This document shows, piece by piece, positions 24,509 through 29,213 of a stretch of 33,810 nt of DNA; the stretch's first letter is position 1, and each line of letters begins with the position of its first letter. The DNA is from Caulobacter sp. (GTDB lineage: Bacteria; Pseudomonadota; Alphaproteobacteria; Caulobacterales; Caulobacteraceae), in NCBI GenBank assembly GCA_019636175.1, contig JAHBYC010000031.1, forward strand, positions 1 through 33,810, in the 5' to 3' direction. Under the pieces are notes generated by a model. It did no database searches and had not been told where the DNA came from. It worked only from the letters and a program-made list of their open reading frames with translations. A program made the position numbers and the translations under genes.

Positions 24509-25245
24509 TGGCCTTCGACCAACTCGAGCGCCCGACAACTGCCGCGTTCCTGGACGCGGAGCTGCGTGACGCCCACCCGACCACCATCATCGAGGCGGCT
24601 GTCGCCGCCCATGGCGACCGCCTGGCCCTGGTCTCGTCCTTCGGGGCGGAATCGGCGGTGCTGCTGCACCTGGCCGCCCAGGTGAAGCGCGACATTCCGG
24701 TGCTGTTCCTCGACACCGGAATGCTGTTTGGCCAGACTCTCGACTACCGCAAGCAGCTGACCCAGCGTCTGGGCCTGACCGATGTGCGCGACCTGCGGCC
24801 GCGCTTTCAGGACCTGGCCGTCACCGACCCAGACGCCAACCTGTGGAAGACCGACACCGACGCCTGCTGCAACATCCGCAAGGTCATTCCGCTTGATCTC
24901 GCGCTGGAAGGCTTCGAGGCCTGGCTGACCGGGCGCAAGCGGTTCCACGGCGGCGACCGGCTGCGGCTGGCCGTGGTCGAGCAGGCCGACAGCCAGATCA
25001 AGTTCAATCCGCTGGCCAACTGGGGCAAGGCCGAGCTGGACGCCTATGTCGCCGAGCACGACCTGCCGGCCCATCCCCTGGTCGCCCAGGGCTTCCCGTC
25101 GATCGGCTGCTGGCCCTGCACCAGCCCGGTCGAACCGGGGCAAGATGTCCGCGCCGGACGCTGGGCCGGTCAGGACAAGACCGAATGCGGCATCCACGTC
25201 GCCCGGGCCAATGTGAGCCCGACGAATGTGGGCGGAGGCATCTGA
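24508..25245 (+). CDS. cysH: phosphoadenylyl/adenylyl-sulfate reductase, [4Fe-4S] type
   Basis: 245 residues. It makes sulfite from activated sulfate with thioredoxin or glutathione as reductant. The PP-loop-like SSFGAESAV binds the nucleotide. Cys120-Cys121 and Cys201-Cys204 (CC and CxxC) are the iron-sulfur ligands that mark APS-type reductases, and Cys227 in ECGIH is the catalytic thiol. Enterobacterial PAPS reductases lack the CC/CxxC set, so APS is the likely substrate. It is the last gene of the operon; ATP sulfurylase is not in the window. Confidence 0.94.
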   Translation: MAFDQLERPTTAAFLDAELRDAHPTTIIEAAVAAHGDRLALVSSFGAESAVLLHLAAQVKRDIPVLFLDTGMLFGQTLDYRKQLTQRLGLTDVRDLRPRFQDLAVTDPDANLWKTDTDACCNIRKVIPLDLALEGFEAWLTGRKRFHGGDRLRLAVVEQADSQIKFNPLANWGKAELDAYVAEHDLPAHPLVAQGFPSIGCWPCTSPVEPGQDVRAGRWAGQDKTECGIHVARANVSPTNVGGGI

Positions 25246-25257
25246 CCCGCCTTCTGG

Positions 25258-25271
25258 CCGGGTCGGCCCGG
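25258..25271. terminator. weak hairpin between convergent cysH and 3D-domain genes
   Basis: CCGGG-TCGG-CCCGG lies in the 38-bp gap between two convergent stops. The 5-bp GC stem has no U-run, so intrinsic termination is only possible, not clear. Confidence 0.25.
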
Positions 25272-25283
25272 TCTGCGCCGGAC

Positions 25284-25880
25284 CTAGCGCGCGGCCACCC
25301 GGCTGCCGGCCTTCGGGCAGCCGGTAAAGGCGCCGGCCTTGATCACCGCGACATTGCGGGTGTTGATCTTCATCAGCGGCTGCATCGACTTGCGGCCATG
25401 GCCAGTGAACAGGTCGATGATGGCGCCCTTGATGGCGCCGCCGGTGTCGGAGGCGTACCAGTAACCGTCGTGGGACGAGCCGTCGGGCATCTTCAGGCCG
25501 ACGGTGGCCGGAATGAACAGGATCGACCGGCGCGGCGCCACAGCGGGATCCACCGCCGCCGTGCGCATCGCCACCACCGGGCAACCAAGCGAATCGCGGG
25601 CGCCCGCGCCGCCGCCGCCGGAGTGGTAGAGGGTGACCTTCATGGTCCAGTCGGCGTCGGCGTTTTCGTCGATCGCCTCGCTCTGGACGCTATCGTCGGG
25701 TATCGGCGCCATCTCGCCAAAGCCGGGCGCCTGGGCCCCGGTCAGCAGCGATTGTTCAATCAGGTCGCCGATGGGATCGGCGCCAGCGGGAGTCCGGCCG
25801 TGACGGGAAGGTTGGGCCAGAGACTGGGTTGCGACCAGTCCGATGACCAGCGCGGCGAGGCATGCCGAGGTCCGCTTCAT
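25284..25880 (-). CDS. secreted 3D-domain protein (double-psi beta-barrel)
   Basis: 198 residues. A signal peptide (KRT, hydrophobic ACLAALVIGLVATQSLA, cleavage near residue 22) implies a periplasmic location. The C-terminal half carries the three Asp of the 3D domain: Asp111 in AAVDPAVAP, Asp145 in YASDTGGAIKG and Asp156 in IIDLFTGHG. This domain is the catalytic barrel of MltA-like lytic transglycosylases. The protein lacks the extra MltA domain, so it may trim peptidoglycan or bind it. The ATG at 25880 is chosen because it begins the signal peptide. It is divergent from the GST gene. Confidence 0.85.
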   Translation of the reverse strand: MKRTSACLAALVIGLVATQSLAQPSRHGRTPAGADPIGDLIEQSLLTGAQAPGFGEMAPIPDDSVQSEAIDENADADWTMKVTLYHSGGGGAGARDSLGCPVVAMRTAAVDPAVAPRRSILFIPATVGLKMPDGSSHDGYWYASDTGGAIKGAIIDLFTGHGRKSMQPLMKINTRNVAVIKAGAFTGCPKAGSRVAAR

Positions 25881-25953
25881 GGGCGTTCCCCCCTGTTGTT
25901 TCTCGACGTAACGAGGCCGTTCCCTACCGACGGCCGCGCAGCCTGGCAACCGC

Positions 25954-25963
25954 AACAATTGTT
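25954..25963. promoter_or_regulatory. AACAATTGTT palindrome before the GST gene
   Basis: A perfect 10-bp palindrome 15 bp upstream of the GST start, in the 98-bp divergent gap. Its A+T content contrasts with the surroundings. It is a possible operator or part of a minus-strand promoter. Confidence 0.25.
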
Positions 25964-25978
25964 ACAGGGAGAGCTTTG

Positions 25979-26566
25979 ATGAGCATCACCATCTATGGCG
26001 ACAGCATCTCGGGCAATTGCCTCAAGGTGAAATGGACGGCGGAACACCTGCAATTGCCGTATCGCTGGGTTGAGACCGACATTCTCAAGGGCATGAGTCG
26101 CACGACAGATTTTCTGATGCGGAATCCCGCCGGCCAGGTTCCTATGGTTGTGCTCGAGGATGGTCGCGCCCTGGCCCAGTCGAACGCGATTATCCTCTAT
26201 CTTGCTGAAGGCTCGCGGCTGATGCCCGAGGACCCCTACCTGCGCGCCAAGGTGCTGGAATGGCTGTTCTGGGAGCAGTACAGCCACGAGCCCTATGTCG
26301 CCGTGGCGCGGTTCCAGATGGCCTATCTGGGCAAGCCGGCCAGCGAGCTTGATCCAAAGATCGTCGAGCGCGGCAAGGGCGCCCTGGCCCGGATGGAGAT
26401 GGCGCTGGAGGACGGCGGCTTTCTGGTCGGCCAGCACGCGACGCTGGCGGATATCGCCCTGGTCGCCTACACCCGCGTGGCGCACGAGGGCGGCTTTGAT
26501 CTGTCGGATTTTCCCGCCGTCACCGCATGGATAGCCCGCGTCGAGACCGCGATAGGAATTGCATGA
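25979..26566 (+). CDS. glutathione S-transferase family protein
   Basis: 195 residues, cytosolic. The N-terminal thioredoxin fold has [14 protein letters not shown] with the Ser/Asn/Cys region of bacterial GSTs, [14 protein letters not shown] with the cis-Pro, and [12 protein letters not shown] binding glutathione. The helical C-domain ends [18 protein letters not shown]. The ATG at 25979 follows AGGGAGAGC. Its stop overlaps the next ATG (ATGA), linking it to the deiodinase-like gene. A role in conjugation or isomerisation of an electrophile is inferred from the family. Confidence 0.92.
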
Positions 26567-27249
26567 GCCAGGACGACCCAAGGGCGTTTGTCCTCGACCC
26601 CCTTCCCTGGACGGAATTTGAGCCCGGCGAGATGGCGGCGCGGGCCGAGGCCTTTCGCGAGGTGATGGCGGCGCGGCGCACGGTGCGAGACTTCTCCGAT
26701 CGTCCCGTCCCCCGGGCCTTGATCGAAACCTGCCTGCGGACCGCCGCCAGCGCGCCCAGCGGCGCCAATCTGCAGCCCTGGCATTTCGCCGTGGTTGGCG
26801 GCGCGGAGGTCAAGCAGCGCATCCGCGTCGCCGCCGAGGCGGAGGAAAAGGCCTTCTACGCCGGCAAGGCGGGCGAGGCCTGGCTCGAGGCCCTGGCGCC
26901 GCTGGGCACTGATCCGGACAAGCCCTTCCTGGAGATCGCGCCCTGGCTGATCGTCGTCTTCGCCCAGCGCCGGGCCGGCGCCCTGCCGGGAGAGGATCGC
27001 AAGGCCTACTACTTCAACGAATCGGTCGGCATCGCCACCGGCCTGTTGATCGCCTCGCTGCATCAGGCCGGCCTGGCCACCCTGACCCACACGCCGGCGC
27101 CGATGGGATTTCTCAACGAGATCTGCGACCGGCCGGCGACGGAAAAGCCCTATCTGATCGTGGTCGCGGGCTATCCCGCCAAGAACGCCGCGACACCGCG
27201 CTTCGCCCGGCATAGAAAGCCGCTCGACACCATCACCACCTGGCTGTGA
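26563..27249 (+). CDS. nitroreductase-fold flavoprotein, iodotyrosine deiodinase-like
   Basis: 228 residues, FMN-dependent. [14 protein letters not shown] holds the FMN-phosphate arginines (Arg38, Arg39), [14 protein letters not shown] the next FMN contact, and [19 protein letters not shown] the dimer/FMN helix. Ungapped alignment from memory to human iodotyrosine deiodinase places Glu95, Tyr99 and Lys120 on the substrate lid triad Glu157, Tyr161 and Lys182, with identical spacings of 4 and 21. LATLTHTP matches the deiodinase TVTTTP. The expected reaction is reductive dehalogenation of a halophenol such as halotyrosine; the physiological substrate is unknown. It overlaps the GST stop (ATGA), with AGGA as SD. 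Confidence 0.85.
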
Positions 27250-27257
27250 CATCCCCC

Positions 27258-28271
27258 ATGACTTTCAAGCGCCTCATCCCCTCCCTCTGCGCCCTCGCCG
27301 TCGGCGGGCTGGTGGTCACCCAGGCGATGGCCTGGGGCAACACCGGCCACCGCCTGATCGGCATGCTGGCGGTCGAGTCCCTGCCGGCGGAGCTGCCGGC
27401 CTTCCTGCAAGGCAAGGAGGCGGTCCGCGCCATCGGCGAGCTGGCCCGGGAACCGGACCGATGGAAGGGAGCCGGCAAGATCCATGACACTGATCGCGAC
27501 CCGGCTCATTTCCTCGATCTGGGCGACGACGGCCGCATTCTGGGCGGACCGCTGCTGACCGATCTGCAGCCGACCCGCGCCGACTACGAGAAGGCGCTGC
27601 AGGCGGCCGGGACCAACAGCTGGCAGGCCGGATATCTGCAGTATTCAATCATCGACGGCTATCAGCAGCTGGTGAAGGACTTCGGCTACTGGCGGGTGAC
27701 CGCCGCCGCCGAGAAGCGGTCGGTCGGCCATCGCAAACGCTGGTACAAGGCTGACCGGCTGCGGCGCGAGCAACTGATCCTGCGGGACCTCGGCGAGTTC
27801 GCCCACTATGTCGGCGATGGCTCCCAGCCCCTGCACGCCACCGTCCACTACAATGGCTGGGGCGACTATCCCAATCCCAAGGGCTACACCACCGACCGGA
27901 TCCACGGCCCCTTCGAGGGCGCTTTCGTCGCGGGATCGGTGACCCAGACCGGCGCCAGGGAGGCGATGCGTCCGTTCGAGGACTGCGGCTGCCCGATCGA
28001 GAAGCGGGTGATCGGCTATCTGACCACCACCCAGACGCAGGTCGAGCCGCTCTATGCCCTGTGGAAGGACGGCGGCTTCAAAGACAAGGACCCGCGCGGC
28101 CAGGTCTTCGCCACTGTCCGGGTCGCGGCCGGCGCCAGCGAACTACGCGACCTGACCGTGCTGGCCTGGCGCGAGAGCGCGACGACGAAGGTCGGCTGGC
28201 CGGCGGTCAGCGTGGCCGATGTCGAGGCCGGCAAGGCCGATCCCTGGGAAGCCATGCTGGGCGCCGACTGA
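27258..28271 (+). CDS. secreted S1/P1-type nuclease
   Basis: 337 residues including a signal peptide ending AMA. The mature protein starts WGNTGHRLIG, which gives Trp1 and His6 as in P1 nuclease, where the N-terminal Trp itself binds zinc. Further ligands are expected in EPDRWK, DPAHFLDL and EFAHYVGDGSQPLHA. Three zinc ions would hydrolyse single-stranded nucleic acids, or nucleotides, in the periplasm. The start could also be GTG at 27246, overlapping the previous stop as GTGA; neither has a clear SD. The stop shares a base with the Nudix ATG. Confidence 0.9.
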   Translation: MTFKRLIPSLCALAVGGLVVTQAMAWGNTGHRLIGMLAVESLPAELPAFLQGKEAVRAIGELAREPDRWKGAGKIHDTDRDPAHFLDLGDDGRILGGPLLTDLQPTRADYEKALQAAGTNSWQAGYLQYSIIDGYQQLVKDFGYWRVTAAAEKRSVGHRKRWYKADRLRREQLILRDLGEFAHYVGDGSQPLHATVHYNGWGDYPNPKGYTTDRIHGPFEGAFVAGSVTQTGAREAMRPFEDCGCPIEKRVIGYLTTTQTQVEPLYALWKDGGFKDKDPRGQVFATVRVAAGASELRDLTVLAWRESATTKVGWPAVSVADVEAGKADPWEAMLGAD

Positions 28272-28717
28272 TGCTGGAGTTCGGCGTCCGTGATCCGGAG
28301 CTGGCCTATCGGTTCCGGCCCGCCGCCTTCGGCATCTGCGAGAGGGACGGCCTGATCGCCCTGGTGCTGGTCGAGCGGACCGGCGGACGGTCCTACCACG
28401 ATCTTCCCGGCGGCGCGGTCGACGGGGAGGAAACCGAGCATCAGGCGGTGGTCCGCGAGTTCGGCGAGGAGACCGGACTGGTGATCGAGCCCAGGGAGCT
28501 GGTGCTGCGCGCCAGCCAGCTGTTCCTCAAGAGTGACGGCGAGCCGGTCGAGAACGAGGGCGGCGTCTATCAGGTGCGGCTCGCCGGCGAGGACGCGGCC
28601 CTGAAGATCGAGGACGATCACACCCTGGTCTGGGTCGAGCCGACGGCGGCCGTCGTCACTCTGCGCCACGAAAGCCATGCCTGGGCGGTGGCGAAATGGT
28701 TGCGGGCGCGCCGTTAG
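28271..28717 (+). CDS. Nudix hydrolase
   Basis: 148 residues. The Nudix box runs GAVDGEETEHQAVV then REFGEETGL, fitting G-x5-E-x7-R-E-U-x-E-E-x-G-U exactly, so it hydrolyses a nucleoside diphosphate linked to another group with Mg2+. The N-terminal YRFRPAAFGICERDGLIALV is the first barrel strand set. Placement right after a nuclease suggests nucleotide clean-up, though one is periplasmic and the other cytosolic. The substrate is not predictable. Confidence 0.92.
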   Translation: MLEFGVRDPELAYRFRPAAFGICERDGLIALVLVERTGGRSYHDLPGGAVDGEETEHQAVVREFGEETGLVIEPRELVLRASQLFLKSDGEPVENEGGVYQVRLAGEDAALKIEDDHTLVWVEPTAAVVTLRHESHAWAVAKWLRARR

Positions 28718-28736
28718 TCCGACAATCATCCCGGCC

Positions 28737-29213
28737 ATGAGCACCGATCGGACTATCTACGGATCGCGCGGCAAGCTGGCCCTGATTCTGGTGATCGGCC
28801 TGATCTTCGTCGCCATCGGCGTTCTTCTCGTGTCCCGGCCAGACCAGACCGCGTCCGACCTGTTGATCGCCTGGGGCGCCGTGGGGTTCTTCGGGCTGTG
28901 TGTTCTGGTCGCGGGCTACCAACTGGTTCGGCCCAGCCGGCTTGACCTTACCGCGAGCGGCTTCACCTACACCGGCCTCTTCGGCAAGAGCTTCACGGTG
29001 GCGTGGTCTGATGTGGAAACCTTCCATGTCTGGCAAAATCCTGCCGCCGCCCATCGCCTGGTGGCCTGGCGCTATTTCGAGGGCCGGGCTCCTCGCGGCG
29101 CCGCCATAGGTCAGGCCCTCGGAGCGGAGGGCGCCATTCCCGGAGCCTGGACCCTGTCGACCGACAGGCTGGCGGCCCTGATGCAGTCCCACCTGGAGGC
29201 GTCCCGCAAATGA
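28737..29213 (+). CDS. small membrane protein with PH-like domain (STM3941-like)
   Basis: 158 residues with two membrane helices near residues 13-33 and 42-64. A cytosolic beta-rich part follows (LDLTASGFTYTGLFG, AWSDVETFHVWQ) that resembles bacterial PH-like/STM3941 proteins. Function unknown. The ATG at 28737 lies 19 nt after the Nudix stop; SD weak. The stop overlaps the methyltransferase ATG as ATGA. Confidence 0.75.
   Translation: MSTDRTIYGSRGKLALILVIGLIFVAIGVLLVSRPDQTASDLLIAWGAVGFFGLCVLVAGYQLVRPSRLDLTASGFTYTGLFGKSFTVAWSDVETFHVWQNPAAAHRLVAWRYFEGRAPRGAAIGQALGAEGAIPGAWTLSTDRLAALMQSHLEASRK

Follow-up and report, generated by a model that had tools for sequence, protein, structure and literature searches.

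A Probable Iodotyrosine Deiodinase Family Gene in Caulobacter, Placed Among Resident Neighbors

The iodotyrosine deiodinase (IYD) family is already known from bacteria as well as animals, and a bacterial IYD has already been deposited in the PDB. The closest described system is represented by entries 5ko7, 5ko8, and 5krd, whose PDB molecule name is 'Nitroreductase' and which we take to be the IYD of Haliscomenobacter hydrossis, an organism of another phylum. Mammalian IYD, or DEHAL1 (4ttb, 5yak, 3tnz, and 3gb5), provides a second reference, and the animal enzymes carry an N-terminal membrane anchor. A further entry, 6pz0 (192 aa), is named 'iodotyrosine deiodinase' and is presumably a Thermotoga protein. 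In PMC5499721, the lid helix of mouse IYD is described as covering both the substrate and the FMN, and a thesis on the use of the Haliscomenobacter enzyme in the detoxification of iodophenols is cited in PMC8076288. A literature search for IYD in combination with Thermotoga or with Glu157 returned no paper.

The window considered here, meaning the whole stretch of 33,810 nucleotides that was analyzed, comes from a Caulobacter draft genome of 3.17 Mb in 91 contigs (86.9% complete), and its relevant genes are collected in Table 1. The IYD-family reading frame has a stop-free translation, and an alternative, longer start is available in the same frame at 26527; the start was taken at 26563, because the ATG at that position overlaps the TGA of the GST gene by four bases (ATGA, 26563-26566) and because several relatives (L018, L024, L033, L047, L052, and L096) match from residue 1 or 2. 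The earlier note had described the two genes as translationally fused, a description that gives way to this overlap; since the ATG of one gene overlaps the stop of the other, the pair is expected to yield two separate proteins, possibly translationally coupled. Among the 199 sampled genomes of the organism's bacterial family, the closest relative of the IYD is encoded by a genome of the same genus, Caulobacter (G022, the source of L018), at 93% identity.

Table 1. Genes at and around the IYD-family gene, with positions counted along the window.
Feature	Coordinates	Strand	Remark
3D-domain protein gene	25284..25958	-	Divergent from GST; same place in relatives
GST-like gene, 195 aa (start by homology)	25979..26566	+	Common in the bacterial family; not considered a dedicated partner
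IYD-family FMN reductase gene, 228 aa	26563..27249	+	Lid triad, FMN site, and Thr177 aligned
S1/P1-nuclease-like gene, start ATG 27258	27258..28271	+	PF02265 at 21.8 bits, below the cut-off of 29.5
NUDIX hydrolase gene	28271..28717	+	End of the GST-nuclease-NUDIX row

The assignment of the protein to the IYD family is carried by its scores against solved structures. In a phmmer search of those sequences, 5ko7 is the best match (218.5 bits, E = 7.5e-64, residues 13-219), followed by four animal IYD sequences at 146.5 (human 4ttb) to 138.7 bits; 6pz0, also of the IYD family but shorter and far more distant, reaches 76.8 bits, while the best chain outside the IYDs obtains 55.5 bits and the BluB structure 2isj obtains 26 bits. 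A profile built from 40 relatives gives the same order, with 300.5 bits for 5ko7, 226.4 to 222.9 bits for the four animal sequences, 107.6 bits for 6pz0, and 74.6 bits for the first other nitroreductase. As a control, restricted to one of the generic nitroreductase paralogues of the same genome and run against the PDB, a generic protein scored 198.8 bits to 3gr3 and 23 bits (E 0.00049) to 5ko7. The protein thus matches solved IYDs over nearly its full length and far above other nitroreductases. Pfam assigns Nitroreductase PF00881 (77 bits) as well as TM1586_NiRdase, whose 28.8 bits only just pass the cut-off of 27; no NCBIfam family exceeds its own cut-off.

The residue-level comparison agrees with this placement. 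In pairwise alignment, 107 of 206 residues (52%) are identical with 5ko7 and 85 of 209 (41%) with mouse 3gb5. By phmmer and pairwise alignment alike, Glu95, Tyr99, and Lys120 fall on Glu91, Tyr95, and Lys116 of 5ko7 with no gap between them; in the mouse chain they correspond to Glu121, Tyr125, and Lys146, and, counted along the phmmer alignment, to positions 127, 131, and 152 of the 4ttb chain, which become human Glu157, Tyr161, and Lys182 after the addition of 30. The claim of the earlier note that these three residues occupy the human lid positions is therefore borne out by gap-free alignment to 5ko7, mouse, and human proteins. The FMN site is represented by Arg38, Arg39, and Arg42 together with PSGAN at residues 65-69; 5ko7 and mouse both share the three arginines, Pro65-Ser66-Gly67-Ala68, Ser154, Thr175, Thr177, and Pro178 with this protein. 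The counterpart of Thr177 is Thr173 in 5ko7, Thr203 in the mouse chain, and Thr239 in the human enzyme, which we take to occupy the flavin N5 position. The THTP stretch pairs with THTP in 5ko7 and with TTTP in mouse; the correspondence of FMN motifs and THTP that had been proposed also holds. The lid triad, a threonine at the N5 position, and the FMN arginines with PSGA are thus all found in alignment. The triad spacing of 4 and 21 residues, on which the first reading had leaned, is correct but weak as evidence on its own, because the automatic alignment placed E, Y, and K in the same columns for a generic paralogue (L004) as well; the case for a putative IYD rests on the whole-length match, not on the spacing.

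On these grounds, it is probable that the gene product is a bacterial IYD-family protein, by homology a homodimeric FMN enzyme for which the adjoining GST is no dedicated partner, and its likeliest activity would be an FMN-dependent reductive removal of halogen from ortho-halotyrosines or halophenols. The known IYD family is the source for the chemistry, for the dimer, and for what each residue would do, including what we assume for the individual lid residues Glu157, Tyr161, and Lys182 of the human enzyme. By that analogy, Glu95, Tyr99, and Lys120 would grip a halotyrosine-like substrate by its amino-acid end when the lid shuts on the flavin, and the backbone at Ala68, whose human counterpart presumably holds the substrate phenolate, would do so here together with an FMN ribityl hydroxyl. 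Thr177 would bond flavin N5 and favor one-electron steps, and reduced FMN would then expel the ortho halogen as halide, with the enzyme acting as a homodimer.

The conservation of these residues was read from an alignment of 117 proteins, consisting of the window's protein, 5ko7, mouse, 79 of 80 loci from a pattern search, 31 loci from a whole-genome search, and four of nine plasmid matches; they comprise 113 distinct sequences, and three or more of the whole-genome-search loci repeat a pattern locus. The locus left out (L093) lies on a Rhodobacterales metagenome contig and has an in-frame stop inside its IYD match, which indicates either a disrupted gene or an error in sequencing. The lid triad and Thr177 are present in all 117 proteins; the 80 pattern loci are biased in this respect, as Glu95 and Tyr99 lie inside one search pattern (EAEEKAFY) and Asn69 inside another (ANLQPWHF). 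The triad and Thr177 are likewise found in 31 of 31 whole-genome-search loci, which were chosen without a pattern and all come from the organism's class. At E 1e-40 or better, an IYD occurs in 38 of 385 sampled genomes of the class and in 14 of 199 sampled genomes of the bacterial family, with the window's own genome included in both counts. At E 1e-3, the pattern search returned at least 532 stretches, some of which may not be IYDs, and the best 80 of these include titles from Chloroflexi/Anaerolineae, Acidobacteria, Planctomycetota, Lacunisphaera (Verrucomicrobiota), KSB1, and Neomarinimicrobiota. The family has a wide and patchy distribution. A plasmid gene was considered and set aside, as tblastn (E 1e-20) found nine relatives in 72,556 plasmid records, each below 60% identity; three annotated ones that were read carry the label 'nitroreductase family protein'.

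One position departs from the solved enzymes. Residue 69 (26767-26769), which adjoins Ala68, is Asn in 113 of the 117 aligned proteins and His in four, namely 5ko7 (His65), mouse, and two plasmid proteins from Streptomyces and Deinococcus; the four His rows all fall within one five-row set of the tree, the fifth row of which has Asn. We treat this difference as a lead, not a finding. A speculative extension would be that Asn-type IYDs act on a different natural phenol, in which case halide release from iodotyrosine would be a special case. A related reading, which we consider unlikely but the best of the alternatives, keeps the protein in the IYD family with its fold and triad and assigns its real job to another reduction, such as that of a nitrophenol, a quinone, or another amino-acid-like phenol, so that dehalogenation would be a side activity. 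The predominance of Asn69 beside a His in both solved proteins of the set points in this direction, as does the Asn at the matching motif place in the genome's three generic nitroreductases; the invariance of the triad and Thr177, however, would be hard to explain if an amino-acid-like phenol had been dropped.

The searched genomic associations also lean toward such another reduction, given that no partner gene is shared across lineages and no link to halogenases was found. In the 199 family genomes, Trp_halogenase PF04820 (E < 1e-100) occurs in six of the 14 with an IYD versus 93 of the 185 others (Fisher p 0.78), and at E 0.001 in nine of 14 versus 112 of 185; a halogenase partnership was thus rejected, IYD genomes not being enriched for PF04820. 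The window's own genome holds one open reading frame with two PF04820 matches of 46.2 and 33.2 bits (cut-off 21), compared with 640 to 690 bits for the strong ones. In the lineages read, no gene was a constant companion of the IYD, whether in the 40 largest clusters among neighbors of the 80 pattern loci or in clusters of at least three among 115 loci, where the neighbor calls include spurious antisense reading frames of high-GC DNA; the clusters stay within related groups, for instance a Reyranella group and a Methylobacterium/Beijerinckiaceae group. Chief among the exceptions is a regulator-like reading frame that lies on the upstream side of the IYD at five loci (L047, L052, L075, L096, and L100), which include Lysobacter, Phyllobacterium, and Nitratireductor, with IYDs that are close in the tree for L047 and L075. 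By eye, these five upstream frames resemble a GntR-type regulator, a hint that regulator and IYD may have been transferred together. A scan of 25200-28800 showed no sigma-70-type site and is uninformative for this lineage. Taken together, halogenases and gene neighbors point to no natural substrate or reductant for the predicted dehalogenase.

The earlier note had further suggested that the GST suits a joint handling of halogenated or electrophilic aromatics, i.e., that the two genes form a detoxification module. The genes do overlap, and the GST adjoins the IYD in five of the 14 IYD-bearing family genomes (G000, G022, G092, G143, and G168), which span two genera, but the module is improbable in view of how the GST is distributed. 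GST orthologues (E 1e-50 or better) are found in 122 of the 199 sampled family genomes, 112 of which have no IYD; the GST is present in ten of the 14 IYD genomes and absent at that threshold from the other four (G002, G066, G174, and G177); and among the 80 pattern loci it matched L018 and L019 well, L031 and L079 weakly, and no others. Of the 122 GST loci, 30 were fetched and read, two of which carry the IYD, whereas 28 have no IYD beside the GST, including one (L163) from a genome with an IYD elsewhere. Counting the next matched gene, with a largest GST-nuclease gap of about 270 bases (L142), the nuclease follows the GST on the same strand in 27 of these 28 loci (the exception being L144); the NUDIX gene follows the nuclease in 26 of the 27 (not in L152), and the 3D-domain gene lies on the other side of the GST in all 28. 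The resident order is therefore 3D-domain gene, divergent from GST, nuclease, and NUDIX gene (25284-28717), kept with or without the IYD, and, because the IYD-less loci have the nuclease next in nearly every case, the IYD is an extra gene of patchy occurrence that sits between the GST and the nuclease.

No co-occurrence of GST and IYD beyond their shared position was found, and the GST looks like a resident neighbor of the IYD, not its dedicated partner. The nuclease, which lies within the fetched flank in nine of the 14 family IYD loci (L001, L005, and L008-L014), is the steadier neighbor; its predicted protein gave no NCBIfam match at E 0.001, and the gene is divergent yet conserved in this bacterial family. 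The IYD occupies the same insertion place in two genera, which suggests either a single old acquisition with subsequent losses or a transfer of this stretch. Base composition gave no sign of a recent foreign import, the GC of the IYD gene (69.3%, GC3 87.7%) being equal to that of its neighbors. The GST gene itself has a GC of 62.2% (GC3 79.0%) versus 68.4-69.6% (GC3 87.3-88.5%) for cysH, IYD, nuclease, and NUDIX genes.

In a 57-row tree, the window's protein groups with L018 (100/100) and then with L019 (99/98); a separate six-row Brevundimonas group (100/99; L062 is titled Brevundimonas halotolerans) lies inside the same 16-row set (97/85), and 5ko7, mouse, and a Bacteroidota plasmid protein (L138) lie in another set (98/87). 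A different IYD branch (L015, L016, and L017; 100/100) occurs in three further genomes of the window's genus, where it sits in other surroundings beside a shared upstream reading frame of 474 aa, so that at least two IYD lineages are present in the genus. The split between IYD and generic rows has no more than 89/64 support. AU tests on 34 rows rejected none of the placements: keeping the 26 IYD rows together gave p 0.528, joining the window's protein to two BluB rows gave p 0.34, and joining it to all eight outgroup rows gave p 0.532. The tree consequently does not fix where the family is rooted, and it is the score gap that carries the distinction of the putative IYD from BluB and generic proteins. 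A misreading of a BluB, a malonic semialdehyde reductase, or a generic nitroreductase as an IYD is scarcely credible, for although all share Pfam family PF00881 and the AU tests give no fixed rooting, the protein scores far below the curated cut-offs of BluB (TIGR02476, the best NCBIfam match, 54.6 bits versus 150) and malonic semialdehyde reductase (NF003768, 31.5 bits versus 152) and reaches 218.5 bits to 5ko7. The BluB match lies mainly over the N-terminal FMN-site part, and a separate malonic semialdehyde reductase is encoded in the same genome (C40, 279.5 bits). Placement within BluB or the generic nitroreductases, which the earlier note had named as the opposing outcome, is contradicted by the scores and not rejected by the AU tests, and the original identification as a bacterial IYD-like protein stands on the identities to 5ko7 and mouse and on scores well above those to BluB. 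Family membership is accordingly supported at the level of sequence, with the protein far nearer to solved IYDs than to BluB.

For the biology of such genes, the likely label 'nitroreductase family protein' may be sharpened to a substrate-level prediction, namely a probable dehalogenase of the IYD family. The tempting operon argument from the GST is at the same time removed, the GST being a resident gene, and the Asn/His difference at residue 69 offers a concrete comparison for the role that enzymes of this kind may play in soil and water bacteria.
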